This document shows positions 23,861 to 38,719 of a stretch of 61,855 nucleotides of DNA, piece after piece. This DNA comes from Sulfurovum sp. Its GTDB lineage: Bacteria > Campylobacterota > Campylobacteria > Campylobacterales > Sulfurovaceae. Within the stretch, counting starts at the first letter, position 1. Every line of letters begins with the position of its first letter. The translations under genes and the position numbers were made by a program. The stretch is taken from the NCBI GenBank assembly GCA_012329065.1, contig JAAXPZ010000004.1:1-61855 (forward strand), in the 5' to 3' direction. The notes under the pieces were generated by a model. The model saw only the letters and a list, made by a program, of their open reading frames with translations, was not told the DNA's origin and did no database searches.

Positions 23861-24508
23861 TTACAGCTTTTTCGCCTTTGCTATACAGTCCTCAATCAAA
23901 GGTTGATCGGCTGTAACATACTGAATATACTGCGGTAGATGTGATTTGGTCTCATTGCCGATAACTACTGCTGTATAGCTTTTGTCCCAATCAAAATTTT
24001 TCAAAAAACAATAAATTGATGAAGGGGAAGTAAAAATAATGATAGCATGCTTGTCGGGAGCTTCATCACAAACATATGATACACATGAAGTTTCGTAAAT
24101 TATCTGCTCTTGCAAGGCTATTCCTCTCAAAGCCAAAAAACTTTTGCTATCAAAAGATATTTTTTGTGGGCGAAGATATAATATTTTTCTGCCTGATAAG
24201 CTTTCAACGATATCCTCTGCAAGCTCTTTGGCGTAAAAAGCACTCGGAGCATAAAGCACTTTCCCGCCAAATGCCTCAATCTCTTTCTTTGTGGCATCAC
24301 CAATAGCAATAGATGGAAATTTCTTCCACCGACTATCTATCTCTTCTGCACTTTTCACTGCTTGTTTGGAACTGAACATTAGCGTATCGCAAGAAGAAAA
24401 ATCTATCTGTTTGGCAGTTGTATCAAATGTAATCATAGGCATATGTATGACTCCCGCTTTAGCAGTAGGAGAGAGAAGGTAAATTTCTCTATCTATTTTT
24501 ATTGCCAT
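23861..24508 (-). CDS. hemD: Uroporphyrinogen-III synthase
   Basis: Cyclises hydroxymethylbilane to uroporphyrinogen III, the branch point for heme, siroheme and cobalamin. The 215-residue protein is weakly conserved, as HemD always is. It has the two-lobe pattern: CDTLMFSSKQAVKSAE in lobe 1, KFPSIAIGDATKKEIEAFGG and GRKILYLRPQKIS between, and IIFTSPSSIYCFLKNF and YTAVVIGNETKSHL in lobe 2. The last two are the most diagnostic segments. Its start overlaps the end of the CDF gene by 20 bp. Confidence 0.88.
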   Translation of the reverse strand: MAIKIDREIYLLSPTAKAGVIHMPMITFDTTAKQIDFSSCDTLMFSSKQAVKSAEEIDSRWKKFPSIAIGDATKKEIEAFGGKVLYAPSAFYAKELAEDIVESLSGRKILYLRPQKISFDSKSFLALRGIALQEQIIYETSCVSYVCDEAPDKHAIIIFTSPSSIYCFLKNFDWDKSYTAVVIGNETKSHLPQYIQYVTADQPLIEDCIAKAKKL

Positions 24509-25403
24509 ATAGAGCCATTTGATCTATCTCTTCATCATCATAAGGATCATAATGTGCAGTGATAAGCCATTTTTTCTTATCGTCATTCTTAATGACCTGG
24601 GCCTCTATCTCATTACCTATTTTATGTGCATCTATGAGCATTATCTCGGGGTACAAAACGATATGAAACTCTACAAAATTTGTTGTGCCGTCAGTACGAG
24701 TCTTAAGCCAATGATAACTAGTAACCTTTGGATGCTTAGAGATGATTTCTCCTATTCTCGCAACAATCTCACCTTCTAGGGAGTGATCTAGTAATATCTT
24801 TATTCCTTCTTTGATAATCCCATATGCTACATAGACAACATAAAGACCAATTCCTATACCAAAAAGTGCATCTATGGCGGCAAAATCACTCACCCATACT
24901 AAAAGCAAAGAAAGTAAAACGGCTGCGTTGCTCCACAAGTCCGTCTGGTAGTGGAGGGTATCTGCCTTTATGACTATATTGCCAGTATCTTTAGCAACTT
25001 TCGATAAATACCGTACAAGAGCAAAAGTTACTGCTATAGATATTAACATAACTAAAATGGATGGGGTCATCAAGGAGATGGATTCTCCATCGATAAGCTT
25101 TTCGAAACCTTTATAAATAATAAAAAGTCCAGAAACTGTGATGATAGTTCCTTCTATCACTCCAGCTATAGCCTGTATCTTTCCTTTGCCATACTGATAC
25201 CTATCATTTGGATTTTCTTCTGACTTTTTGATGGCAAAGAAGTTGAATACTGAAATAAACATATCCAACAGAGAATCTATTGCGGAAGCAAGCACTGCTA
25301 CAGAACCGCTCGCCACACCAGCGATAAGCTTCATTATCGTAAGCGTGGCAGCTACGATACTTGCTACTACTATGGCTCTTTTTTGTGGAGAAACTACTGG
25401 CAT
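24489..25403 (-). CDS. Cation diffusion facilitator (FieF-like metal exporter)
   Basis: An inner-membrane divalent metal/proton antiporter of about 305 residues with six predicted transmembrane helices. The metal site shows DxxxD in SAIDSLLDMF (TM2) and HxxxD in LHYQTDLWSN (TM5), the DD-HD set found in FieF-like exporters of zinc, iron or cadmium. A cytoplasmic C-terminal domain starts near ILLDHSLEGE and includes the SYHWLKTRTDGT segment. I start at the ATG at 25403 because family members begin near there. An upstream ATG at 25454 would overlap the preceding gene by 38 bp, and neither has a good ribosome site. Confidence 0.9.
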   Translation of the reverse strand: MPVVSPQKRAIVVASIVAATLTIMKLIAGVASGSVAVLASAIDSLLDMFISVFNFFAIKKSEENPNDRYQYGKGKIQAIAGVIEGTIITVSGLFIIYKGFEKLIDGESISLMTPSILVMLISIAVTFALVRYLSKVAKDTGNIVIKADTLHYQTDLWSNAAVLLSLLLVWVSDFAAIDALFGIGIGLYVVYVAYGIIKEGIKILLDHSLEGEIVARIGEIISKHPKVTSYHWLKTRTDGTTNFVEFHIVLYPEIMLIDAHKIGNEIEAQVIKNDDKKKWLITAHYDPYDDEEIDQMALYGNKNR

Positions 25404-25416
25404 ATCAAAATATCTT

Positions 25417-25725
25417 TTATATGCGTACCTTGGATACACGACACCTTTTAACATATTTATATCGTTTTGATTTTTTTCTTTTAACTCTTTTTTTGATTAC
25501 TCTTTTTTTCTTTTTACTCACCTTATTGCTATTGCCCAAGTTGTGGACATCATGCATCCAGTTATGTTTGCCTCGCACAAACTTCTCAGTCTGTACAATA
25601 TCAAAACCATCTATGGCACACGGGTCATGTAGATACTTAGCACTACACCAAGCTGCAGTTGCAGTAGAACTGAGCAACATCAAAGATGCCACCGAAATCA
25701 GCACTACTATTATAGTTTTTTTCAT
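25417..25725 (-). CDS. Small secreted protein with strongly basic tail, unknown function
   Basis: A 102-residue protein I do not recognise. The ATG at 25725 is preceded by AAAGG at 7 nt. A clear signal peptide (MKKTIIVVLISVASLMLL, ending ATAAW) leads to a short mature part with two cysteines and several His/Trp residues (CSAKYLHDPCAIDGFD, KHNWMHDVHN). About 35 residues rich in Lys and Arg follow, with a last cysteine near the end. The export signal and basic tail suggest an envelope protein binding acidic polymer or lipid. It lies upstream of the CDF exporter on the same strand, and the His/Cys content would allow metal binding, but that is a guess. Confidence 0.65.
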   Translation of the reverse strand: MKKTIIVVLISVASLMLLSSTATAAWCSAKYLHDPCAIDGFDIVQTEKFVRGKHNWMHDVHNLGNSNKVSKKKKRVIKKRVKRKKSKRYKYVKRCRVSKVRI

Positions 25726-25802
25726 CCTCATACCTTTACTTAGAATCTCCAAAGGGAAAATATCGGAGCATATAATGGTATTGTAGCATAATAGAAGTTA
25801 GG

Positions 25803-27155
25803 TTATTCCACCTCTTCTTCTATGTTCCTATTCTTGTTGGCTAAATACTCTTTGTACATCTTTAGTGTAATATCCATATAAGGTGACTTCACATATCTTG
25901 GTCTAACCTTTGCTATTTCCTTTTGTGCGTCTTCTATATCACAGCCTTGATATATTAGCCATGCGGATACCAGCAATACAGAACGAGATAGTCCAAGTGT
26001 ACAATGCACATAAATTCCATTATTCTTATGCTCTTCTATATGCAATACTCCTTGGTGCAAAGATTCTGGGCTTTGTATAGTTTGGTCTAAAAAGGGTAGC
26101 CTTATTTGGGAGAGTCCGTTTCTTTGTATCTGTTGTTCTGTAGCAAGATTAAGAGATAATTCTATACCCTCTTCCTCTAGGAGTTTATATTCTTGTGTAC
26201 TTGGGTAGCGTCCTAAGTAAACACTTTCTTTCACCTCCTGCATAAGTGGTAATTTTCTTTTGTAGTACTGCCAGGATAGGTAATTGCCGACAAAATATGG
26301 AGCAAAAAATATCCATTGCCACCATGAAGCTTTGGCATTTTTGCCTGCTAATAGTGTATTGAGTCCAAAAGCATAGATGATGCTAACCAGCAAAAGTGTA
26401 GCAAATACCCAAAGAAAAAACCATGAACACCACGATGCCATATAAAAAGCCAAAAGCATAAACAACACTGCCCCAGCAATGTAGTAAAGAGCCATTTTTA
26501 AAGAACGAGGTGTACTAAAGCCATGTGTTAATACACTTTGCTTTTCTTCTTTTATCAAAAATACAGCAAGTAGCCCCGCTATAGCTCCTGTAGGAATATC
26601 TATAAAATGATGCTGATAAACAAGTACTGTTGAAAATACTATAAGTAAGAACCATAGTGCAACAAAGGCTTTAAGCAACCTATTTTTGAGATATTTTTTC
26701 ATGGAAGCCCAAAGCACTATAGTAAAAGCAACATGTAGCGAGGGAAGTTGATTAAAAGGCAAATCAGCTTCTAGTATGCCAAACAAAAGTGTAAAACTCT
26801 GTATCTCTGGCTTTTCAAAAGAAAACTGCAAAGGAAAAAGTACAAATACCATACATGAAAGAAGTATAATAAATAAAATTCTCGCAGCAAGTATACGAAG
26901 TTCAAGCCTAGCATAGGGCATAAAAAAAGCGATGACAAACATAACATCAGACGACATATAAGGCACAATAAATGCTTCTATAAATGGTATCTGTTGTTCC
27001 CATGCCATCCAAAAAGAAGGATGAGGGGAGGTGAGTCCTGCATATTGATTGGAAGAACCGTACAGCAAAAAGAAGAAAATACCCATATAGAGCATCCAAA
27101 CAAACTTCTCTTTGCTCACTGCCTTGGCATCTAAGTGATGGTCAAATGCATACAT
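25803..27155 (-). CDS. ynbD: PAP2-dual specificity phosphatase fusion membrane protein (YnbD-type)
   Basis: A 450-residue inner-membrane protein. Residues ~1-280 hold about nine hydrophobic segments including a PAP2 lipid-phosphatase domain, with LPSLHVAFTIV in place of PSGH and a later YQHHFIDIPTG (His-x3-Asp). The C-terminal cytoplasmic part (~300-450) is a dual-specificity phosphatase with the CX5R signature VHCTLGLSRSV near residue 380 and a possible general acid in LPFLDQT. The arrangement matches E. coli YnbD. It is last in the ynb-type operon, 2 bp after ynbC. Likely substrates are lipid phosphates or phosphorylated headgroups; this is inference. Confidence 0.85.
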   Translation of the reverse strand: MYAFDHHLDAKAVSKEKFVWMLYMGIFFFLLYGSSNQYAGLTSPHPSFWMAWEQQIPFIEAFIVPYMSSDVMFVIAFFMPYARLELRILAARILFIILLSCMVFVLFPLQFSFEKPEIQSFTLLFGILEADLPFNQLPSLHVAFTIVLWASMKKYLKNRLLKAFVALWFLLIVFSTVLVYQHHFIDIPTGAIAGLLAVFLIKEEKQSVLTHGFSTPRSLKMALYYIAGAVLFMLLAFYMASWCSWFFLWVFATLLLVSIIYAFGLNTLLAGKNAKASWWQWIFFAPYFVGNYLSWQYYKRKLPLMQEVKESVYLGRYPSTQEYKLLEEEGIELSLNLATEQQIQRNGLSQIRLPFLDQTIQSPESLHQGVLHIEEHKNNGIYVHCTLGLSRSVLLVSAWLIYQGCDIEDAQKEIAKVRPRYVKSPYMDITLKMYKEYLANKNRNIEEEVE

Positions 27156-27157
27156 AG

Positions 27158-28879
27158 CTATTTACCCGTAAACTTCGCAGAAGACACTGTAAAAATACCC
27201 CAATCATCTATACGCATACCCTCTTTTTCAAATCCTCTTTGGGAGAAAAGATAGTCAAGTTCATATTGACTACGACGACGCATAATCCACTTAGTATTTT
27301 GATGGTTACCTAAAACATTGGCTATCTGTTCCAACTGTGGATGCCAAGGCTGACCTGTATAAAGTAAATACCCTCCATCTTCGACTAGAGAAGCTACACC
27401 ATCCATAGCTATACCTATTAATTCATTGGATTCAAAAAGTTCAAAGACACCTGAGATGATGGCAATATTTGGTCTATAGCCACCCACATCATAATTGTTA
27501 GCATCAAAAGCATCACTTTGTGTATAAGTGATGTTTGTCAAGTCTCTCTCTTTTGCCAAAGCTCTACCCTCTTCTACATTTTGCTCTTGGTAGTCTCGTA
27601 CTTGCACCTCAACCTCAGGGTATTTCTCTGCTATTTCTATGAGATACCTAGCAGGTCCTCCTGCTATGTCTAAGATGCGTACCTTTTCACCTTTTTCTTG
27701 AAGTAAAACTATCTTCTCTTCTGTGGCTTTTATCATATTTACTTTTCTTTGTCGTATGCCTTTCCAGCCTATACTCTCTAGGTAATTTTTGTCTATCATT
27801 TTACCTAGCCATGTGACACCAGAGGGTTCATTTTTATAGACATGGTCAAGTGTCACACCAGAGTCAAAACCATACTTCAGCCCTATCTTCATACCGTCAC
27901 TCAGAAAGCCTAGTTTTTGCATCATTTGACGCTGTATAAAATAGTTTGCTTCTTTATAGAGTGGCAAAGTCCCATAAGCGATTTTATCTTGCTCTTTTTT
28001 GGTAGTTTTGACCATCTCCTTTACAAGACTTGTCTCTTCACTCTCAAAACACTGTTCCATAAATGAAGCTATCTCATTTATAGCTTTTTGATGTTCACTC
28101 TCATACAGTACCCCATGGTAAAAACCCTCTAGTTGAACAAACTTTTTGAATGGTGAAGCAAGAGATGCATAAAAGTCTCCCTGTACTTTTGAGTCCACCA
28201 CATAGTCTTTTGTTGCAGAAAGTACAAGTATCGGCGTAGCTATGAGCTGTGCATCATCTACTACTCTTATAGCAGTGTCTAGTAAAGTCGTGAGCTGACT
28301 AGCAGGGATATTTGGAGTGATGAGGGTGTCGTCGTCATATCTTTTTTGTTCCTCTTTCTCATGGGTAAGAAACTTTGACTTTACATAAGACTTTATATTC
28401 ATTTTTGGTTTGAATTTTACAGCCAGTTTTAAAAACTCTTTTGCAAAAGGGAAATAAAGTTTTATCTTAAATGCAGGAGCTATAAGTGCCAAACCTCTTA
28501 CTTTAGGTGCATAATCATGTACCCATGTACTTGCAGTCACTCCTGCTACAGAATTAGCGATGATAAATACATCTTTTTGCTTCTTGCCCTCTTTGTCACA
28601 AACAAAAGAGACAAAAGCATCCAAATCACGCACCAAATCCATAAACTCATAAGCTGGTTCTGCTTTGGTATGTCCATGCCCTCTGTTGTCATAAGAAAAT
28701 ATCTTGTACCCTGCAAACTCTGGCTTGGCTGCGATACTTTCTAAACGCCCAGAGTGTTCATGTCCACGGTGCAGTATAATAAGTATATGTCCATTACTTT
28801 TCACATCTTCATGTTCCCATTCTCTATAAAAAAGTTCGCTCTCATCAAAACTTTTAAATGTGCTTTCTATTGATTTCAT
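27158..28879 (-). CDS. ynbC: Alpha/beta hydrolase-methyltransferase fusion (YnbC-type)
   Basis: The 573-residue soluble protein joins two enzymes. The N-terminal lyso-lipase-like alpha/beta hydrolase (~1-280) shows ILHRGHEHSGR, YDNRGHGHT, a nucleophile elbow ANSVAG (normally GxSxG) near residue 107, an acidic VLSATKDYVVD and the histidine in EGFYHGVLYE. The C-terminal class I SAM-dependent methyltransferase has the SAM loop ILDIAGGPARYL near residue 405. This unusual fusion is the hallmark of E. coli YnbC. It overlaps the acyltransferase gene by 4 bp. It may trim an acyl chain and methylate a lipid headgroup; neither substrate is known. Confidence 0.87.
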   Translation of the reverse strand: MKSIESTFKSFDESELFYREWEHEDVKSNGHILIILHRGHEHSGRLESIAAKPEFAGYKIFSYDNRGHGHTKAEPAYEFMDLVRDLDAFVSFVCDKEGKKQKDVFIIANSVAGVTASTWVHDYAPKVRGLALIAPAFKIKLYFPFAKEFLKLAVKFKPKMNIKSYVKSKFLTHEKEEQKRYDDDTLITPNIPASQLTTLLDTAIRVVDDAQLIATPILVLSATKDYVVDSKVQGDFYASLASPFKKFVQLEGFYHGVLYESEHQKAINEIASFMEQCFESEETSLVKEMVKTTKKEQDKIAYGTLPLYKEANYFIQRQMMQKLGFLSDGMKIGLKYGFDSGVTLDHVYKNEPSGVTWLGKMIDKNYLESIGWKGIRQRKVNMIKATEEKIVLLQEKGEKVRILDIAGGPARYLIEIAEKYPEVEVQVRDYQEQNVEEGRALAKERDLTNITYTQSDAFDANNYDVGGYRPNIAIISGVFELFESNELIGIAMDGVASLVEDGGYLLYTGQPWHPQLEQIANVLGNHQNTKWIMRRRSQYELDYLFSQRGFEKEGMRIDDWGIFTVSSAKFTGK

Positions 28880-29508
28880 TTATTATCCTTAGTATAGTTT
28901 TCTTCTAATATCTTAATCGTTTTCTCTAGTCTCACAGTAAATCCTTTATTATTTTCATCTTCATAAAACAATGATTTATTGATATGTACATCTATAATAA
29001 AAGGCACAAAAAGCCCTTCACCTTTGGGTAAAGCCTTGCCTGCACCATGTATATAGACAGGCACTACAGGCACAGAGGGAAATTCTTTAGCCAAATGTGC
29101 AATACCTGTTTTAAAGGTACTCATCTCTTCAGGTACTCCACGAGACCCTTCTGGGAAAACTATCACTATATCTCCATGTTTTAAGGCATTTTGTACAGCT
29201 AGCAGAGGATGCCCCTCTTCTTTACTAGGTCTTCTTTTAAGCGGGATGATGCCTAGTGCATTTAAAGAAAACCATGCAAAATATTTATTTTTCATAAAGT
29301 AATCTGCGGCTGCTACGGGGCGAACTTGGTTTATTTTAGAAAGAGGGAAAATACTCATCAAGACCATTGTGTCCAAATGACTGTTATGGTTTGCAGCGAT
29401 GATACAAGGTCCTTCTCTAGGTAGATATTCTTTGCCTACTACATGCACACCAGAGACTATAAGCACCAAAGGTCGCACAAACAATGTAAAAAAGATTTTT
29501 TTTAACAT
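28876..29508 (-). CDS. PlsC-type 1-acylglycerol-3-phosphate acyltransferase homologue
   Basis: A 210-residue acyltransferase with an N-terminal membrane anchor. The catalytic HX4D motif is in AANHNSHLDTMVL, and the acyl-acceptor phosphate-binding motif is FPEGSRG (usual form FPEGTR). IIPLKRR corresponds to motif II. It lies between ynbB (9-bp gap) and ynbC (4-bp overlap), so it is probably specialised to the ynb-type lipid pathway and not the housekeeping PlsC. The acyl acceptor could be lysophosphatidic acid or the lyso form of the pathway's own product. Confidence 0.87.
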   Translation of the reverse strand: MLKKIFFTLFVRPLVLIVSGVHVVGKEYLPREGPCIIAANHNSHLDTMVLMSIFPLSKINQVRPVAAADYFMKNKYFAWFSLNALGIIPLKRRPSKEEGHPLLAVQNALKHGDIVIVFPEGSRGVPEEMSTFKTGIAHLAKEFPSVPVVPVYIHGAGKALPKGEGLFVPFIIDVHINKSLFYEDENNKGFTVRLEKTIKILEENYTKDNK

Positions 29509-29517
29509 CTTTACTTC

Positions 29518-30426
29518 CTAATAATATAAGTAATAGACATAATGAAAAAACAAAGGGGCTGTATAGATGAGGCTGTCTACTCTATCTAATATGCCACCGT
29601 GTCCTGGCAACATATTACCAGAGTCTTTTACGCCTATATCTCGCTTAATCATAGAGATGACTACATCACCTATAAATCCTGCCATAGAAATAATCATCCC
29701 TGCTATCAAAGCTTCAAACCAAGTAAAGGGAGTCAGAAAAGAAAAAAGTACTGCCAAAATAGATATGCTTACAAATGCCCCCAAGAAACCTTCTACAGTT
29801 TTATTGGGGCTGACTTTTGGTATGATTTTTCTCTTGCCTATAGACTTGCCCCAAATGTATTGAAGTATGTCATTTAATTCTGTTAGAAGCACCAAATAGA
29901 GTACCAACTCTACACCAGCTACTGTATTGCTCCCTATAGGTGCTAGTGTTATCATATAAGCTAGATGTGAAAGCCCAAAAACGAACATCATGAGTCCCCA
30001 CTGTACCCGTGAAGTGTTTTCTAAAAAGCCTTTGGTCTCACCTATAAGTACTTGCTTAAATGGTAAGAGTAAAAAGAGAAAAACAGGTATCCATATGATA
30101 AACATGCCATACCAACCAATACCCGCAAAATAATACTGAGGAATGATAGCCATATAGGCATAAAACATTACCCGTCTGTCTGTCTGCCGTGAGGGGATAA
30201 GCGTGAAATACTCTTTAAGTGCCAAGAAAGACAAAAAACCAAAAAAGAACATCGCCATTGTGGTATTGAGCATCGCACCTAGAGTAAAAAATGCAATGAT
30301 AATCCACCATGAATTGATACGGTCTTTGAGTTCTTGGGTGGGAAACTTAATGTAAATAAGTGCTGTTGCTACCATAAGCGATAGTAGTATAAACCCTAAA
30401 ACCAAGCCCATTTCATAACTTATCAT
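29518..30426 (-). CDS. ynbB: CdsA-family CDP-diglyceride synthase (YnbB-type)
   Basis: A 302-residue polytopic protein with about eight membrane segments. It ends with a complete phosphatidate cytidylyltransferase signature: SMIKRDIGVKDSGNMLPGH followed by GGILDRVD, with the acidic metal-binding residues intact. It would make CDP-diacylglycerol from phosphatidic acid and CTP. Its start overlaps the ynbA stop by 4 bp. Bacteria normally have one housekeeping cdsA next to dxr and frr; this copy is embedded in the ynb-type operon and probably supplies activated lipid to YnbA. Confidence 0.9.
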   Translation of the reverse strand: MISYEMGLVLGFILLSLMVATALIYIKFPTQELKDRINSWWIIIAFFTLGAMLNTTMAMFFFGFLSFLALKEYFTLIPSRQTDRRVMFYAYMAIIPQYYFAGIGWYGMFIIWIPVFLFLLLPFKQVLIGETKGFLENTSRVQWGLMMFVFGLSHLAYMITLAPIGSNTVAGVELVLYLVLLTELNDILQYIWGKSIGKRKIIPKVSPNKTVEGFLGAFVSISILAVLFSFLTPFTWFEALIAGMIISMAGFIGDVVISMIKRDIGVKDSGNMLPGHGGILDRVDSLIYTAPLFFHYVYYLYY

Positions 30427-31019
30427 GCGACTAATCCTTTTTTAGCTCTATTAAATACTGTGAGTACACCTAGACCAATAGAGATAAGTAAAAGCCCATC
30501 AGACCACCAATCTGGCGTAAGCCCAAGACCTATAAGCAGTGCCAACAGACCTACAACAAAAGCTCTATCACTCTTGCCCATAGGTCCATCATAGCGACGC
30601 ACGCCACCGATGACCGCCCCAAGTATACCTGCTACTTCAGTCAAAAGTCCTACTACCACAAAGAGTACCACCAACACAGGTGAAACCCCTGCTATAAATG
30701 CGAGAGGAAGATAAAGTGCTGCGTCAGAGACCACATCACCTAGCTCATTAAGCATCGCACCCTCATCACTCATCATATCATGCTCTTTAGCTAGTATACC
30801 ATCTATGGCATTAAGTGCCATGCGTACAAACATCACAAAAGGTATGAGCAATAGTGTCCATGTAGCCCCTTGTGTCATTGCAACAATTCCACCAGTAACT
30901 ATAGAGAGTATAAGTGCTGCCCATGTCACTTGGTTGGGGGTAATACCTTTGGCATGTAAGTTGTTGACAATAGGTCTTAATAAGGCTTGAAACTTTGGTT
31001 TTAAATCATATATGGTCAT
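30423..31019 (-). CDS. ynbA: CDP-alcohol phosphatidyltransferase homologue with altered motif (YnbA-type)
   Basis: A 198-residue six-helix membrane protein. The family motif DxxDGxxAR-x8-GxxxDxxxD is present in modified form: Asn70-x2-Asp73-Gly74-x2-Ala77-Lys78, then Gly87-x3-Asn91-x3-Asp95, with another acid at Asp99. Two of the four normally invariant aspartates are thus Asn, and the Arg is Lys. From memory E. coli YnbA has the same Asn substitutions, so this looks like a subfamily trait and not decay. It would join CDP-diacylglycerol (from YnbB) to an unknown alcohol. First gene of the operon, with AAAGGAAAT before the ATG. Confidence 0.87.
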   Translation of the reverse strand: MTIYDLKPKFQALLRPIVNNLHAKGITPNQVTWAALILSIVTGGIVAMTQGATWTLLLIPFVMFVRMALNAIDGILAKEHDMMSDEGAMLNELGDVVSDAALYLPLAFIAGVSPVLVVLFVVVGLLTEVAGILGAVIGGVRRYDGPMGKSDRAFVVGLLALLIGLGLTPDWWSDGLLLISIGLGVLTVFNRAKKGLVA

Positions 31020-31044
31020 TTATTTCCTTTTTTAAGGCATACCT

Positions 31045-31050
31045 ATTATA
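31045..31050 (-). promoter_or_regulatory. Candidate -10 box of the ynb-type operon
   Basis: TATAAT reads 31050 to 31045 on the minus strand, predicting a start near 31038, 19 bp before the ynbA ATG. No clear -35 is seen. It lies after the htpG terminator-like hairpin, suggesting independent transcription. Confidence 0.45.
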
Positions 31051-31086
31051 ACTATATTATTGCGGAAAATTTCTTTATGCGAGAAA

Positions 31087-31111
31087 CCTAGCACAACTAT
31101 GTTGCGGTAGG
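31087..31111 (-). terminator. htpG terminator-like hairpin
   Basis: CCTAGCACAAC pairs with GTTGCGGTAGG (9 of 11 positions) around TAT. On the minus strand it is followed by TTTCTC. It separates htpG from the ynb-type operon. Confidence 0.45.
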
Positions 31112-31126
31112 CTTAGGGGGTAAAAT

Positions 31127-32989
31127 TTATATTGCATCTATCGCGATAGATGCAATCCTATGTGCAAAAGCTGTCTTGTCTTTTGGCTCTAGTCCTTCTG
31201 ATATCTTTGCGGTGTCTAGTAGTATCCATGCAATCGTCTCAAACAAAGTATCATTTTTTAAAGTATTTAGCTTTTTTACCATCTCATGCTCTGGGTTGAC
31301 TTCCATTATTAGAGGGGTCTCTGGCATCTCCTGTCCCATCTGGGCAAACATTGCAGCCATGCCTGCCATTGGGTCGGAGGCATCTTTGAGTACACAAGAA
31401 GGACTATCTGTCAATCTTGTAGAAATCTTGACCTCTTTCACCTCATCACCAAGCACCTCTTTGATCTTGTCCGTTAGAGATTTAAATTCTTTGGCTGTCT
31501 CCTCTTTTTCTTCTTCTGTTTTAGAGTCTGGTGCATCTATGGTAGTAACATCTTTGAGAGTCCACTCTTTGTAGCTACCTATCATAGGAGTGACGATACT
31601 ATCTACTTCTTCATCATCTAGGATAAGCACCTCAATACTTGTCTTTTTGTAAGCTTCAAGAAGGGGAGAGTTTCTAAGTACTTTTTCGTCAGAACCTACT
31701 ATGTAGTATATCTCTTTCTTCTCACTATCACCCCTAGAAATATAGTCGTCCAGAGAGATTAGTTTATCTCCACTTGAGCTTTTATATCTAACGATTTCTA
31801 ACAGTGTTTCTTTGTTAGTATGATCTATATAGATACCCTCTTTGATTACCTTATTATACTGCTCTGTAAATTTTTGTGAGTCTTCATTTTTTAGCTTTTT
31901 GATTGCTGTAAGTATTTTCTTTACAGCTCCCTGCTTGATATTTGCAAGGATTCTATTTTCTTGCAAAATCTCTCTGGATACATTCAGTGGTAGATCCTCG
32001 CTATCTATAATACCCCTAACAAATCTCAGATATGGAGGAAGTAGCTCTTTCTCGTCATCTGTGATAAATACTCTCTTAACATAGAGCTTCACGCCTGGCT
32101 GATAGTCTGCCCTGTACATATCCATAGGTGCTGTTTTTGGGATATAAAAAAGTGTCGTATACTCATTGGCTCCCTCAACCTTGTTATGTAGATAAGTCAA
32201 TGGCTCTTCACTGTCATGAGATATGGTCTTATAAAACTCTACATAGTCCTCTTTTTTCAACTCAGTCTTTGCTAGAGTCCAGAGTGCAGTAGCTTCATTG
32301 ATCTGCTCTCTTTTTTTGACTCTTTTGGTGACCTTGTCGTCACCTTCACCCTCGGTCTCATCCTCTTCATAGTTTAGCATGATCGGATAAGCTATGTGGT
32401 TGGAGTATTTCTTGACGATACCTTCTGTATGCCATTTACCTAAAAACTCTTTTTCATCTTCCTTGAGCTTGATATAAATTACTGTGCCATTATCTTCTTT
32501 GATAACTGGCTTAACTTCATACTCTCCAGAGCCATCTGTAGAGAACATATATGCTTGATCTTCTCCAGCTTTTTTAGAGATAACATCTACTCTTTCTGCC
32601 ACCATAAACACTGAGTAGAACCCTACACCAAACTGTCCGATTAGATTACTGTCTTTTTTGGCATCTCCCGTGAGGTTTTCCATGAATGCTTTGGTGCCTG
32701 ATTTGGCAATGGTACCTAAATTGTCCATCAGATCCTGTTTGTTCATGCCAATACCATTATCTATGAAGCTTATAGAGTTATCTTCGGTATCTAGCTTAAT
32801 ATTAATTTCGCCTTTCCAGTCACTATTTTTAAATTTATCGTCGGTGAGTCTAAGATAATTAAATCTATCTATAGCATCACTGGCATTAGATATCAGCTCT
32901 CTGATAAATATCTCTTTGTTTGAATAGAGCGAGTGCGTCATTAAATGCAGTAGTTGTCCTATTTCTGTCTGAAACTGATGTTTTGCCAT
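31127..32989 (-). CDS. htpG: Chaperone protein HtpG (Hsp90)
   Basis: A cytosolic ATP-dependent chaperone. The 620 residues begin MAKHQFQTEIGQLLHLM and contain the GHKL ATPase signatures: LISNASDAIDRFNYLR with the catalytic glutamate region, DNGIGMNKQDL, and GQFGVGFYSVFMVAE. The middle domain carries the conserved GIIDSEDLPLNVSRE. Length matches bacterial Hsp90. The final codons form a perfect 26-bp palindrome. It is transcribed divergently from the ech operon across a 252-bp gap containing two palindromes. Confidence 0.98.
   Translation of the reverse strand: MAKHQFQTEIGQLLHLMTHSLYSNKEIFIRELISNASDAIDRFNYLRLTDDKFKNSDWKGEINIKLDTEDNSISFIDNGIGMNKQDLMDNLGTIAKSGTKAFMENLTGDAKKDSNLIGQFGVGFYSVFMVAERVDVISKKAGEDQAYMFSTDGSGEYEVKPVIKEDNGTVIYIKLKEDEKEFLGKWHTEGIVKKYSNHIAYPIMLNYEEDETEGEGDDKVTKRVKKREQINEATALWTLAKTELKKEDYVEFYKTISHDSEEPLTYLHNKVEGANEYTTLFYIPKTAPMDMYRADYQPGVKLYVKRVFITDDEKELLPPYLRFVRGIIDSEDLPLNVSREILQENRILANIKQGAVKKILTAIKKLKNEDSQKFTEQYNKVIKEGIYIDHTNKETLLEIVRYKSSSGDKLISLDDYISRGDSEKKEIYYIVGSDEKVLRNSPLLEAYKKTSIEVLILDDEEVDSIVTPMIGSYKEWTLKDVTTIDAPDSKTEEEKEETAKEFKSLTDKIKEVLGDEVKEVKISTRLTDSPSCVLKDASDPMAGMAAMFAQMGQEMPETPLIMEVNPEHEMVKKLNTLKNDTLFETIAWILLDTAKISEGLEPKDKTAFAHRIASIAIDAI
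31131..31156. repeat. Perfect 26-bp palindrome in the last codons of htpG
   Basis: The 13-base half site ATTGCATCTATCG is followed directly by its reverse complement. It encodes the last residues of HtpG up to the codon before the stop, and is followed by AAATTTTA on the minus strand. It may act as an RNA-stabilising or terminator hairpin. Confidence 0.7.
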
Positions 32990-33241: not shown

Positions 33242-35092
33242 ATGGAGACATTGATTGTTTTAAGTATCGTTTTGCCTATTTTGGCTGGATTTATGATGCT
33301 GTTTGCAAAAAATGACGCAGTCACATATATACTATCCTGTCTTATGCTGCCTCTGCTTTCTGGTATGGGCTTTATGATATATACTGCTGATCTACCTATA
33401 TATATCAATACTCCTGATATAGTCAATACATTTATAATAATGTTTGATTTTGGACTATTGGCATACTTCCTTTGGCTAGGATACCAGAGAAAAAGTCTCT
33501 TGGTTGGCTTGCTTGCAGTAGTTCAGTTTATTCTACTTATCATTGTTGTATACATGGCACCTGTATCTGGTACAGCAAATATATATGTAGACAAACTGAC
33601 TGCTATGATGTATTTGCTTGTGGGGATAGTCGGTGTTCCTATTGCTATCTTTGCCGCAAAATACATGGATTATGCTGAAGAGGATAAGCATAAGTTTGTA
33701 GGAATTGTCGTTGGATTTCTAGGAGTAATGAACTTTGCAGTAAGTGTCAACAATATAGAGTGGTTTTTTGCAGTCTTTGAAACCACTACTCTTGCCTCAG
33801 TTATACTTATTGGTTTTAGAGGAGACAAGGAGGCAGTTGACAACTCTACTTTGGCACTCTGGATGAATCAGATAGGTGGTGTTGCCATACTACTATCCTT
33901 GATTCTTATGATAAAAGACATGGGTGTTTATCATTTTACTGATTTGCTGGCACTCGATAAAGAAAACATAACCATGGCTGCTATTGGCTTTCTCTCTATA
34001 GCTGCTCTTGTAAAAGGTGCTCAGCTGCCATTTCATAAATGGCTCTTGGGAGCTATGGTAGCGCCCACTCCAGTATCAGCTATACTGCACTCTGCTACTA
34101 TGGTTAAAATTGCTCCGTTTCTATTGCTTAGATTATCCCCTATTATTGAGGGAACACTGCTATCTAAAATGCTTATTTTAACTACAGGCTTTGTCTTTGT
34201 TGTTGCTGCAATATTTGCATTAACTCAAGACAATCTCAAAAAAATACTGGCCTACTCTACTATATCTCTACTTGGTCTTATGATGGTAGCAGCAGCCGTA
34301 GGAACACCAACAGCAGTTGCGGTATCTATAGTGCTTATAGTATTTCATGGATTCGCCAAAGGATTCCTCTTTGTTGAAGCAGGTGTACTTGAAAAGCTAT
34401 ATAATGCAAAGTATATAAAAGATATGAATATGCTTCTAACTAAAGCTCCGCTAACAATGCTGTTTATATTCTTTGCGTTTTTAAATATGACTTTTATCCC
34501 TTTTGGTACTTTTATAGGAAAATGGCTTATGATCGAAGAGGCTAGTGGCTTCTTGTCTTCAGGTAGTTTTGTGCTCTTGATCTTACTAGTAACAACTGGT
34601 GGTGTTTTTCTCTCTGTGCTTTATATCAAGGTTCTAGGCGTTGCTATCAAGCATCATAGATTTTCAACATTTGACTTTACTCCAATGCCAAAAACATTTC
34701 TTTTTGTAGGGGTCTGGTATTATATGTGGCTTCTTGTGATAACAATATTTATAGCACCATTTATCGCTAACTTTATTGGAGAGATCGCCGCACCTATAGC
34801 TGGTAAAGCACCTATATATGCTGATGGGCTCTCTTTGGTCATAGGTAAGTCTACTCTATACTTTTGGCAGATAGCGGGAGCACTTGTACTGCTTCTACTC
34901 ATACATGCTGCACCACTGTTTGTAAAATTTAAAAAAGTTGATAAGATGCATCCGTATAACTGTGGCGAAATATACACGAGGCAAGCAGAAAGTTATGATT
35001 TTGATTTCATTACTAAATATGAAAAGAGGATCAATTCATTTGCTATAACACTCTTTTTACTTGTACTTATACTAGGAGGGCAACTATTATGA
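33242..35092 (+). CDS. echA: Ech-type hydrogenase membrane subunit EchA (NuoL/HyfB-like)
   Basis: A 616-residue antiporter-like proton- or sodium-translocating subunit with about 15-16 hydrophobic segments. The proton-channel region resembles NuoL/MrpA: a TM glutamate in [19 protein letters not shown] and the lysine/histidine stretch [35 protein letters not shown]. Unlike NuoL it lacks the long lateral helix extension. It leads a six-gene operon and overlaps echB by 4 bp. The ribosome site is AAGGAG. No nuo-specific subunits (A, E, F, G, J, K, N) are present, which separates it from complex I. Confidence 0.9.
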   Translation: [616 protein letters not shown]

Positions 35093-35925
35093 TGGCTATA
35101 CTTTTTACACTATTTGCTCCAATCATCGGTGGATTTATGTACGGCATAGAAAGAGTAGTAAAAGCTAGAATGCAAAGCAGAATAGGCCCACCGCTACTGC
35201 AACCATTTTATGATTTTGTGAAACTTATGGAAAAGAGACCAATGATGGTGCATTCATTTCATGCGTTTATGGGCATAGTCTTTTTTATATCAACATGGTT
35301 TGCAATGGCTGTTCTTATGCTTGGTAACGACTTGCTGATTGCAGTCTTTTTTCATATTATCTCCATATTGGCTCTGACCATTGGAGCTTTTTCAGTAAGA
35401 AGCTCTTATAGTATCATGGGTGCCATGAGAGAGCTTATACACCTTGTATCTTATGAGCCAGTGATTATACTTGTTGTTGTCGCTTTCTATCTTGTTACAG
35501 GAAGTTTTGATTACAGAATGATACTCTCAGCAGATACAATTCCTCTTCTTAAGCTACCGCTAGTATTCATCGCTTTGGTCGGAACTATACCTATGCTACT
35601 ACACAAGTCTCCTTTTGATATAGCAGAAGCACATCAAGAGATCATAGGCGGTCCAGATATTGAGTACAGTGGGCCTTTTTATGAAGCAGTCTATACGGGT
35701 AGATGGATAGAATATGTATATGTTTTCTTTCTGGTATTTTTATTTGGCGGTAGCAACTACTTTGTAGGTGGTCTACTTGTTGTGTTTACCTTTTTGCTTA
35801 TAATGGCAATAGACAATTCTACGGCAAGGCTTGATTATAGAAAAATGCTGAAATTTGCATGGTTTATTTTGATTCCTTTAGCCATAGTAAACATTTTCTT
35901 TTTAGCACTAGGAGGTAATTCATGA
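35089..35925 (+). CDS. echB: Ech-type hydrogenase membrane subunit EchB (NuoH/HycD-like)
   Basis: A 278-residue membrane subunit with about eight helices that links the hydrogenase arm to the ion channel. NuoH/HycD-type conserved parts are visible: the N-terminal GIERVVKARMQSRIGPPLLQ, then MRELIHLVSYEPVIIL, and the acidic quinone-cavity-like loop LHKSPFDIAEAHQEIIGGP, ending EYSGPFYE. It overlaps echA and echC by 4 bp each. Confidence 0.92.
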   Translation: MMAILFTLFAPIIGGFMYGIERVVKARMQSRIGPPLLQPFYDFVKLMEKRPMMVHSFHAFMGIVFFISTWFAMAVLMLGNDLLIAVFFHIISILALTIGAFSVRSSYSIMGAMRELIHLVSYEPVIILVVVAFYLVTGSFDYRMILSADTIPLLKLPLVFIALVGTIPMLLHKSPFDIAEAHQEIIGGPDIEYSGPFYEAVYTGRWIEYVYVFFLVFLFGGSNYFVGGLLVVFTFLLIMAIDNSTARLDYRKMLKFAWFILIPLAIVNIFFLALGGNS

Positions 35926-36401
35926 GTATGAGATCAAAATCACCATGGATATTGCACTACAATACTGGTGGATGTAATGGCTGTGATATTGAAATACTAG
36001 CGGCACTTGGACCCAAATATGACATAGAGCGATTTGGTATGCTCAACAGAGGAAATCCAAAACAATCAGACATACTATTGGTAACTGGTCCAGTGACATT
36101 AAAATGCAAAAATGTACTGAGACGACTCTATCTTGAGATGCCAGAACCAAAAGTTGTTGTCGCAATGGGTGCCTGCACACATGGTGGCGGAGTATTTAGG
36201 CACCTATACCATGTAGAAAATGGTGTCAACGGCATAGTTCCAGTAGATGTTTGGATACCTGGCTGTACGCCTAGAATAGAAGCTATCATAGATGGGCTTA
36301 TAGAAGGTGTTGAGATTTGGAAAGGAAAAACTAAAGAAAAAGAATATCTCGTAGGTCACGGAGATGATTTACTGAAAAAAATAGGAGCTATAGATGATTA
36401 A
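35922..36401 (+). CDS. echC: Ech-type hydrogenase small subunit EchC (NuoB/HycG-like)
   Basis: A 159-residue subunit carrying the proximal [4Fe-4S] cluster. The cysteine ligands are in YNTGGCNGCDIEIL (Cys18 and Cys21), VVAMGACTHGGG and VWIPGCTPR. This is the CxGC...C...C pattern shared by NuoB and group 4 hydrogenase small subunits. It transfers electrons between ferredoxin-type clusters of EchF and the NiFe site of EchE. It overlaps echD by 8 bp. Confidence 0.93.
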   Translation: MSMRSKSPWILHYNTGGCNGCDIEILAALGPKYDIERFGMLNRGNPKQSDILLVTGPVTLKCKNVLRRLYLEMPEPKVVVAMGACTHGGGVFRHLYHVENGVNGIVPVDVWIPGCTPRIEAIIDGLIEGVEIWKGKTKEKEYLVGHGDDLLKKIGAIDD

Positions 36402-36765
36402 TCCTGAATTAATTATGCACGAAGTAACCTTGGGCAACATAAAGGATATCCTTATGGGCTGGTATGATGTTGACAAACATCACTATATAACAATAAATGC
36501 TATCGATAGTGGAGAAACATTAACAATTGATTGGATCTTCTCAGAGTATGAAGTCAAGAATATAATGCATATTTTTAGGGTTGAAAATATTGAGTACAAA
36601 TCAAATATTCCTTCCATGATGGATGTGTACCCTTGTGCATGGGTTAGCGAGTGGGATCTTGCTGACATGTTTGACCTAAATATGGAAAATGCTCATCGAG
36701 GTATGTTCTTGGAGCCAGAAGCACCAACAGGACCTCTACTAAAGGAGTCTTACAGTGGGAAGTAA
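36394..36765 (+). CDS. echD: Ech-type hydrogenase subunit EchD (NuoC-like)
   Basis: A 123-residue subunit without metal motifs, equivalent to the 30-kDa NuoC module. Recognisable are the helix-strand WYDVDKHHYITINAIDSG, the IDWIFSEYEVKN segment and the C-terminal region with EPEAPTGPLLKESYSG near the junction to the large subunit. Assignment rests on position between EchC and EchE as well as weak similarity. It overlaps the GTG start of echE by 11 bp. Confidence 0.83.
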   Translation: MINPELIMHEVTLGNIKDILMGWYDVDKHHYITINAIDSGETLTIDWIFSEYEVKNIMHIFRVENIEYKSNIPSMMDVYPCAWVSEWDLADMFDLNMENAHRGMFLEPEAPTGPLLKESYSGK

Positions 36766-37840
36766 AATAACAGTAACTTTCGGATCGCAACATATAGCGA
36801 TACCAGAGCCAGTGAGTTTTGTATTTGAGACAGAAAATGAAATCATAACTAAAGTTGATGTGGATGTAGGGTATGTGCATAGAGGTATAGAGCAGGCTGC
36901 CGTTTCAAAGTTTAATTTCAATAATGTGCAGTTTTTGTTGGCACGAGTCTGTGGGTTCTGTTCTATCACTCATGCTGGTGCATACATACATGGTGTAGAA
37001 CAGCTCCTAGGAGTGGAGACAACCAGAAGGGCTGACTATCTTCGCTTGATAGTCACAGAACTAGATAGAATGCACTCTCATCTTTTGGCAAATGGACATG
37101 TTGCAGAAGTCTGTGGTTACGAAAATCTCTTTATGCAAGTAGTAAAATATAGAGAAAATGCCACCGAGATATTAGAAGCAATTACAGGTAACCGTGTTCA
37201 ATATGACTATTATCAAATTGGCGGGGTCAGTAGAGATTTGAGTCCTGAGCATATAAAGATGATTAATGCAAAATTAGTAGAACTTCGTAAAAATGTTCTT
37301 AAAATGAGAGACTTTTTTGAAACAGACTATACCTTGGGGCTTAAAACAAGAAATGTAGGAACAATTACTTATGATATGGCAAAAGAGTACAATACTGCTG
37401 GACCCATTGCAAGAGCCAGCGGACTGAGAATGGATGCTAGAAATGAATTTGATTTTTTACCTTATGGGGAAGTTGGATATGTACTTCAAACTCGAACAGA
37501 AGGTGATGTTTGGGCTAGAAATATGGTGAGATTTGATGAAGTCATTAACTCTATTGATATGTCTCTCTATGCTGTTAATAATTTGCCCGAAGGTGATATC
37601 AAAGTCAAGGTCAAAGGCAAACCAAAAGGTGAAACATTTATTCGAGTTGAAGCACCTAGAGGAGAGTGTTTTTATTATATTAAAGGTAACGGTACAAAAG
37701 TCATGGAAAGAGTGAGAGTGAGAGTACCAACCTACTCCAATATTCCTGTTCTAAGAGAGCTATTTGTAGGCTCACTATATTCGGATGCTCAGCCTATAGT
37801 ACTTAGTTTCGATCCATGTCTCTCATGTACGGCAAGATAA
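36755..37840 (+). CDS. echE: Ech-type [NiFe] hydrogenase large subunit EchE
   Basis: The catalytic subunit for H2 oxidation or evolution. The NiFe-binding motifs are intact: RVCGFCSITH (Cys66, Cys69, His73) and the C-terminal DPCLSCTAR (Cys355, Cys358). Complex I NuoD lacks both, so this is a true hydrogenase. The protein ends exactly at this Arg, with no extension for an endopeptidase to remove. It starts at a GTG (36755) 7 nt after AAGGAG, inside the end of echD. Hyp maturation genes are not in the window. Group 4 enzymes couple low-potential ferredoxin to H2 and ion transport. Confidence 0.94.
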   Translation: MGSKITVTFGSQHIAIPEPVSFVFETENEIITKVDVDVGYVHRGIEQAAVSKFNFNNVQFLLARVCGFCSITHAGAYIHGVEQLLGVETTRRADYLRLIVTELDRMHSHLLANGHVAEVCGYENLFMQVVKYRENATEILEAITGNRVQYDYYQIGGVSRDLSPEHIKMINAKLVELRKNVLKMRDFFETDYTLGLKTRNVGTITYDMAKEYNTAGPIARASGLRMDARNEFDFLPYGEVGYVLQTRTEGDVWARNMVRFDEVINSIDMSLYAVNNLPEGDIKVKVKGKPKGETFIRVEAPRGECFYYIKGNGTKVMERVRVRVPTYSNIPVLRELFVGSLYSDAQPIVLSFDPCLSCTAR

Positions 37841-37849
37841 GGAGTTATT

Positions 37850-38719
37850 ATGGTAAAAATGTTTATAGAATCATTAAAAAATTTGACACAAAAGCCTGCT
37901 ACCATCGGCTATCCTCATACCCCGTCCCCTTCTCCAAAGGACTATAGGGGAACTATATATTATCAAGAAGACCTCTGTATATTTTGTGATCTTTGCGAAG
38001 ATGTTTGCCCTCCTGGTGCTATTCTTTTTGAGATTACAAACGCGGCAGAGAACATTAGGGAATATAGCTACAACCCATACTTGTGCATATATTGTCACGC
38101 CTGTGTAGATGTCTGCCCAAAAGCTGATGAAGGATGTCTTGTGCAGGCAGAAACAAGATTGGCTCCATTAGGAAGAGATTCTACTCTTCCACAAGATGTG
38201 AAGCTTGGATATTTTATGGCTAAAGTAACAGAAGCAAAAAATCTTGATAGGAAATGGGATGCCTTTGAAGCAAGAGCTGCCCAAAGTCGTGACGAGATGG
38301 CAGAGTTCAAAGCTGAGAAAAAGCGACTCAAGCAAGCTGCGATGAAAGCCAAAAAAGAAGCTGACGCAAAAACTAAAGCAGAGGCAGAAGCCAAAGAAGA
38401 AGTACAAGCTGAGATAACAATTGAGAACAATGTAGAAACCAAAACTGAAACCAAAAAAGAGCCTACAAAAATAGCATCTGCGATGCCTCAACTACTAACA
38501 GAACCAAAAGATGGCAAAAAAGATGACCTTACGCAGATTAAAGGAATAGCTGAAAAGATCGAACTTATTCTCAATGAAAAAGGTATATATCACTTTCAGC
38601 AAATCGCACTCTGGACAGAAGAAAATATAAAATGGGCAGATGAAAATATATCATTTGTAGGACGCGTCAAAAGAGAGAAGTGGATAGAGCAAGCAAAAGA
38701 GCTTCTTGCTAAAAAATAA
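37850..38719 (+). CDS. echF: Ech-type hydrogenase ferredoxin subunit EchF with C-terminal HhH-like domain
   Basis: Residues ~30-100 form a two-cluster ferredoxin: CIFCDLCEDVCPP (Cys43, 46, 49, 53) and CIYCHACVDVCPK (Cys79, 82, 85, 89), the NuoI-type 2x[4Fe-4S] fold. Typical EchF ends near here, but this protein is 289 residues. A Lys/Glu/Ala-rich charged linker (~135-205) leads to a C-terminal domain (~222-289) with DDLTQIKGIAEKIELIL, then HFQQIALWTEENI and VKREKWIEQAKELL. This resembles the helix-hairpin-helix-like domain (COG3743) attached to some NuoE-type proteins. Its function in this setting is unknown. Confidence 0.9.
   Translation: MVKMFIESLKNLTQKPATIGYPHTPSPSPKDYRGTIYYQEDLCIFCDLCEDVCPPGAILFEITNAAENIREYSYNPYLCIYCHACVDVCPKADEGCLVQAETRLAPLGRDSTLPQDVKLGYFMAKVTEAKNLDRKWDAFEARAAQSRDEMAEFKAEKKRLKQAAMKAKKEADAKTKAEAEAKEEVQAEITIENNVETKTETKKEPTKIASAMPQLLTEPKDGKKDDLTQIKGIAEKIELILNEKGIYHFQQIALWTEENIKWADENISFVGRVKREKWIEQAKELLAKK

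Follow-up and report, generated by a model that had tools for sequence, protein, structure and literature searches.

The closest described relatives of the genes considered here form the ynbABCD operon of Escherichia coli K-12 (b1408–b1411). An activity has been published for YnbB, which produces CDP-diacylglycerol (CDP-DAG) in vitro, yet is no substitute for CdsA; its overproduction raises the level of MPIase, for which it was proposed as a backup enzyme, and a strain lacking ynbB shows normal growth and an unaltered MPIase level (PMC6362211, PMC7018664). YnbA was once listed in EcoCyc as a choline phosphotransferase, an assignment which was later withdrawn (PMC3781023). In our literature search no paper was found that assigns a product to the operon as a whole. 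A preliminary description of the locus reported here had called the function of ynbA to ynbD unassigned, which does not hold for YnbB. If a distinct lipid is the product of the operon, a phospholipid has been missed in the best-studied bacterium.

The window, i.e. the whole stretch of DNA that was analysed, comprises 61,855 nucleotides of a Sulfurovum sp. contig (JAAXPZ010000004.1). According to the list of open reading frames, five genes occupy 25803–31019 on the minus strand and are transcribed in the order A, B, L, C, D. Genes A and B overlap by 4 nt, B and L are separated by 9 nt, L and C overlap again by 4 nt, and 2 nt lie between C and D. The features are as follows:

25753–31126, no strand: the operon insertion, between htpG (31127–32989) and a block of a small ORF, CDF and hemD (23861–25752)
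30423–31019, minus strand: gene A, YnbA-like CDP-alcohol phosphotransferase, 198 aa (PF01066 CDP-OH_P_transf, a weak 25.1 bits)
30735–30812, minus strand: variant CDP-AP motif of A, N70xxD73GxxAK...G87xxxN91xxxD95, with Asn at D1 and D3
30447–30566, minus strand: predicted acceptor-phosphate site of A, from R152 (codon 30564–30566) to R191 (codon 30447–30449), invariant in 72 sequences
29518–30426, minus strand: gene B, YnbB-like CTP:phosphatidate cytidylyltransferase, 302 aa (PF01148 CTP_transf_1, 232 bits)
28876–29508, minus strand: gene L, PlsC-type lysophospholipid acyltransferase, 210 aa (PF01553 Acyltransferase, 90 bits)
27158–28879, minus strand: gene C, YnbC-like hydrolase-methyltransferase fusion, 573 aa (PF12146 and PF12147)
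28094–28789, minus strand: alpha/beta hydrolase domain of C, monoglyceride-lipase-like (PF12146 Hydrolase_4, 181 bits)
27173–28066, minus strand: class I SAM methyltransferase domain of C, Methyltransf_20 (PF12147, 324 bits)
25803–27155, minus strand: gene D, YnbD-like PAP2 plus dual-specificity phosphatase (DSP), 450 aa (PF01569 and PF00782)
26553–26771, minus strand: PAP2 core of D, PSLH...QHHxxxD (PF01569, 31 bits), with H141, H182 and D186 invariant in 71 sequences
25884–26222, minus strand: DSP domain of D, CxxGxxRS (PF00782 DSPc, 48 bits), with C385 and R391 in 70 of 71 sequences

All domain assignments in the five genes lie above the Pfam cut-offs, which confirms the five minus-strand lipid genes of the preliminary description together with the domains claimed for each. 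Its match to E. coli ynbA, ynbB, ynbC and ynbD is likewise borne out, with identities to the K-12 proteins of 44 % for A and for B, 39 % for C and 31 % for D; homologues of A, B, C and D are encoded together, which places the locus in the ynbABCD family. In alignments of family members the catalytic residues are kept across 46–86 homologues per gene. An anti-phage defence function was dropped as a candidate, since the PADLOC models gave no convincing match, only a weak generic methyltransferase match in C (mad2, 30 bits).

Gene B retains the CdsA signature residues S258, R262, K267, D268, H276, G277, G278, D281, R282 and D284. Its score with the CdsA equivalog model PRK11624 is 109.6 bits where 385 are required, so that Pfam family and catalytic signature agree with CdsA and the equivalog assignment does not. 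Gene L contains both the HxxxxD and the FPEG-R blocks of the PlsC (LPLAT) family, with H41, D46, E120 and R123 invariant in 46 sequences, and is 40 % identical to the PlsC-like gene in a five-gene plasmid copy from E. coli. As a putative 1-acyl-G3P acyltransferase it reaches 73.4 bits with TIGR00530, below the cut-off of 102.95.

In the fusion protein C the solved structures nearest to the hydrolase half are monoacylglycerol lipases, and its Ser-Asp-His set is preserved almost throughout (S110 and H255 in 85 of 86 sequences, D225 in all 86). The methyltransferase half has an intact SAM-binding motif in which D404, A406 and G408 are invariant; the nearest solved methyltransferases, including a farnesyl-diphosphate methyltransferase, are matches too weak for use. 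A different setting for this methyltransferase family was seen on a Kosakonia plasmid, where a cluster (L092:2637–8362) holds a YnbC-like methyltransferase beside a carrier protein, a ketosynthase, MaoC, FabG and a metal-dependent hydrolase.

For protein D an AlphaFold2 model was obtained with a pLDDT of 92, and the folds nearest to its DSP domain are DUSPs and PTPMT1. The PAP2 half is assigned from Pfam, because the Foldseek matches listed for the whole protein cover the DSP half alone. Judging by the helices of the model, eight transmembrane segments are predicted to precede the DSP, so that the DSP would lie in the cytosol and the PAP2 site would face the periplasm, provided that the N-terminus is inside.

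YnbA differs from its better known relatives at the metal site. Asn takes the place of Asp at D1 in 71 of 72 family sequences and at D3 in all 72, E. coli YnbA included, and the exchange is also kept in the divergent copies of Verrucomicrobiota and Planctomycetota. The motif NxxDGxxA(R/K/N)...GxxxNxxxD, found in this analysis and present in YnbA of the window, marks the ynbABCD family, whereas PgsA and PssA of the host possess the canonical Asp at all four positions. The DxxDGxxAR...GxxxDxxxD metal site of phosphatidylinositol-phosphate (PIP) and archaetidylinositol-phosphate synthases is likewise altered in YnbA, at N70 and N91. Since two of the metal-site Asp are Asn, the chemistry of YnbA could differ from that of ordinary CDP-alcohol phosphotransferases.

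The fold of YnbA (AlphaFold2 model, pLDDT 93) is nearest to PIP synthase with Foldseek TM scores of 0.77–0.81 (0.80 for the nearest), compared to only 0.56–0.57 for PgsA. The best NCBIfam match is archaetidylinositol-phosphate synthase, below the cut-off, and the family also matches pgsA profiles weakly. In a profile alignment R152 and R191 correspond to R155 and R195 of Mycobacterium tuberculosis PgsA1, which bind the phosphate of the acceptor inositol phosphate (PMC4634129, PMC6506517); the two acceptor-phosphate arginines of PIP and archaetidylinositol-phosphate synthases are thus present. The inositol-site residues of the same enzyme, R94, S132 and K135, are replaced by V96 (V, I, L or Q in the family), G131 and a variable residue. 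Furthermore, a profile search of the host genome for inositol-phosphate synthase (NAD_binding_5, INO1) gave no match, and on these two grounds an inositol head group was rejected. The retained arginines, the lost inositol residues and the lack of the synthase in the genome together suggest that YnbA probably joins a phosphorylated, non-inositol alcohol to CDP-DAG. In the attachment step originally described, the acceptor should be a phosphorylated instead of a bare alcohol.

A scan of GTDB species genomes yielded at least 549 relatives of YnbC, from which 80 loci were kept, 60 of them flanked by 6 kb or more on either side. These 60 well-flanked loci come from many phyla and contain A in 59, D in 57 and B in 53 cases. 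A search for co-occurrence, as proposed in the preliminary description, was carried out on a separate draw of 397 Campylobacteria genomes, with YnbA-type genes called at E<1e-50. YnbC-type and YnbA-type genes were found in 18 genomes each and share 17 of them (hypergeometric p 1.1e-27); a strong YnbD occurs in 15 genomes, all inside the YnbC set (p 1.5e-24). Where the operon was split in the assembly, A was found elsewhere in the same genome in 17 of 19 genomes. The linkage of the operon genes is far beyond chance. They are spread over at least eight phyla, comprising Pseudomonadota, Bacteroidota, Campylobacterota, Verrucomicrobiota, Thermodesulfobacteriota, Planctomycetota and Acidobacteriota plus Cyanobacteriota and Fusobacteriota, and the four-gene form is present at 80 % query coverage or more in 4257 of 5426 complete E. 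coli genomes (~78 %). In Fusobacterium vincentii a 2.1-Mb record (L089, NZ_CP084075.1), filed as a plasmid and probably a chromosome, has the order C-A-B with no recognisable L or D.

The embedded acyltransferase is no peculiarity of this operon; with a PlsC gene in 31 of the 60 well-flanked loci it represents the commonest form. Another 21 of these loci contain a patatin and an SDR oxidoreductase in place of PlsC (e.g. L026:6583–8381, L019:5942–7734, L034:4820–6693), and both forms never occur together. In nearly all copies the patatin has a Cys at the position of the usual nucleophile Ser, within '(S/T/A)CGG'. In the YnbC tree the exchange is found in two well-supported separate clades, the Bacteroidota and a group of Oxalobacteraceae and Comamonadaceae, and hence probably happened more than once, with both modules probably supplying equivalent material. 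In addition, 25 of the 60 loci, mostly from Pseudomonadota, have a sixth gene (~145 aa) behind D, which also occurs in some Campylobacterota; it was not found in the operon of the window, and the product of the copy tested has no Pfam or NCBIfam match. By eye, the small protein after ynbD appears hydrophobic (L088:10073–10510, L063, L077, L102:8192–8590).

The position of the operon in the window is that of an insertion. In the operon-free loci L111 and L112 of the same genus htpG, the small ORF, CDF and hemD are adjacent, L113 shows the same arrangement without a match to the small ORF, and other loci of the family have htpG-CDF-hemD without the operon. The alignments to the empty sites end short of the insertion edges, too far to show target-site duplications. 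Another Sulfurovum copy (L009) has none of the htpG, CDF and hemD neighbours. Among the first 60 relatives drawn, an intact operon was found only in the genome of the window itself, and one further match is a short fragment with stops. In the family to which the host of the window belongs, a decayed operon (L104, G290:C17) retains just the methyltransferase half of YnbC and has a stop codon inside the YnbA match. The gammaproteobacterial Psychromonas and Thiofilum group with Campylobacterota in the YnbC tree (support 99, set of ten), which is compatible with horizontal transfer without proving it, and the plasmid-borne copies known from Escherichia, Shinella, Rhizobium, Moraxella and other genera are in line with this. 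The GC content (38.1 % for the operon, 38.2 % for the window) is uninformative on a foreign origin. Phage cargo was rejected as a candidate, since no phage record searched encodes a YnbC homologue. As a separate observation, a long NuoL/HyfB-like membrane protein followed by closely packed genes lies on the plus strand at 33242–38719 and perhaps belongs to a membrane-bound hydrogenase or complex-I-like cluster.

On balance we favour, with modest confidence, the reading that the operon is an accessory cassette which has spread horizontally and produces a phospholipid other than the PE, PG and CL of the host. In the order of steps that we infer, L would acylate a precursor of the lyso-phosphatidic-acid type that the host provides, B would convert phosphatidic acid and CTP to CDP-DAG, and A would displace CMP by a phosphorylated alcohol X-P, other than inositol phosphate, yielding phosphatidyl-X-P. 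A phosphorylated acceptor calls for a phosphatase within the operon. This is provided by YnbD, for which PTPMT1 is one of the closest folds; its cytosolic DSP would strip the terminal phosphate as PTPMT1 does on PGP. The remaining roles are guesses: the hydrolase half of C might trim or re-esterify an acyl group, the methyltransferase half might methylate the head group or the lipid, and the periplasm-facing PAP2 of D might dephosphorylate or transfer the head group in the outer leaflet. A fuller form of this reading is put forward tentatively, and we hold it to be doubtful: the phospholipid class would have a methylated head group from a phospho-alcohol other than glycerol or inositol, would be the product of a mobile pathway with a non-canonical, Asn-containing CDP-alcohol phosphotransferase, and would have escaped notice in most E. 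coli as well as across eight or more bacterial phyla.

The preliminary description had proposed a self-contained route to an undescribed phospholipid. A coherent, co-inherited module with conserved catalytic residues and separate from host PE/PG synthesis is indeed present and a new phospholipid may be its product, but the module is not self-contained. The phrase 'start to finish' is overstated because the precursors come from the host: the cassette encodes no glycerol-3-phosphate acyltransferase and nothing that would provide the head-group alcohol, and L or B is absent from many copies. Against a distinct phospholipid count the Asn at two metal-site Asp of YnbA, the absence or replacement of L in about half of the loci and of B in some, and the normal growth and unchanged MPIase of the E. 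coli ynbB knockout.

Action in standard PE/PG synthesis had been named at the outset as evidence against a separate lipid. The host keeps its own CdsA (C62), two further PlsC proteins (C25, C33) and PgsA- and PssA-type genes (C14, C11); the operon is therefore accessory and stands outside the PE/PG pathway of the host. A related alternative is backup or stress synthesis of PG, in which YnbA would use glycerol-3-phosphate, the DSP would act as PGP phosphatase and PG or a remodelled PG would result. Glycerol-3-phosphate is the universal phospho-alcohol, the PGP phosphatase PTPMT1 is among the nearest DSP folds and the pgsA profiles match the YnbA family weakly. However, YnbA is closer to PIP and archaetidylinositol-phosphate synthases than to PgsA in fold (TM 0.80 versus 0.56) and profile, it reads 'GKSDR' where PIP synthases carry Arg and the host PgsA reads 'GKVKT', the methyltransferase is left without explanation, and bulk phospholipid synthesis is beyond YnbB (PMC6362211, PMC7018664), so that we consider this alternative unlikely. 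A role in lipid remodelling or salvage, in which damaged phospholipids are broken down or repaired instead of a new one being built, would suit the monoacylglycerol-lipase-like hydrolase, PAP2 and PlsC as parts of a deacylation-reacylation cycle, and E. coli ynbA is reported to be activated by BglJ-RcsB and raised in acid stress (PMC12871917). Yet YnbA, YnbC and YnbD vary least in their presence, i.e. head-group transferase, methyltransferase fusion and phosphatase, which implies head-group synthesis, while PlsC is exchangeable; remodelling is thus quite improbable. A service to MPIase or a similar pyrophosphate-linked glycolipid would agree with the raised MPIase and the backup role published for YnbB (PMC6362211, PMC7018664), but is highly improbable: the knockout leaves the MPIase level unchanged, ynbB is dispensable for ECA-PG, synthesis of MPIase leaves YnbA, DSP, hydrolase and methyltransferase without a role, and MPIase is described as essential whereas the operon is patchy even inside one family. 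Unrelated genes that are neighbours by chance are refuted by the linkage in many phyla and the co-occurrence within one class (p~1e-27 and ~1e-24).

The PlsC/patatin-SDR exchange, the sixth gene and the family-wide Asn motif go beyond the preliminary description. Concrete handles for testing are the Asn/Asp motif conserved in YnbA, its arginines for the acceptor phosphate and the exchange of PlsC and patatin-SDR.

Compared with known systems, the locus shares with ynbABCD of E. coli K-12 the four families, their order and the Asn-for-Asp motif of YnbA, whereas K-12 has no PlsC gene. The E. coli operon is chromosomal and nearly complete in the 4257 genomes mentioned above, but rare among the relatives of the window. 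Five-gene plasmid copies of E. coli, Shinella and Pseudanabaena resemble the window in the PlsC-type gene within the operon and differ in detail: the E. coli plasmid NZ_CP027341 (L005:10789–13287) retains a mere 62 aa of D, beside an IS66 element, in the Pseudanabaena copy C is reduced to its methyltransferase half and D is absent, and the gene order is different in Shinella. CdsA and YnbB have the CTP_transf_1 family and the catalytic C-terminal signature in common, but their N-terminal halves differ and YnbB is unable to replace CdsA (PMC6362211, PMC7018664). With the PIP synthases (RsPIPS, MtPgsA1) and archaetidylinositol-phosphate synthase YnbA shares the fold (TM 0.77–0.81), a CDP-DAG-type active site and the acceptor-phosphate arginines; unlike them it carries Asn at D1 and D3, has no counterparts of R94, S132 and K135, stays below the NCBIfam cut-offs and belongs to a host without inositol-phosphate synthase. 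YnbD has the DSP fold and CxxGxxRS in common with the PGP phosphatase PTPMT1, and a PAP2 domain with PSLH, His and Asp residues in common with the Aur1-like PAP2_3 phosphotransferases, the PAP2_3 match being below the cut-off; in contrast to both, it fuses the two domains in one membrane protein.
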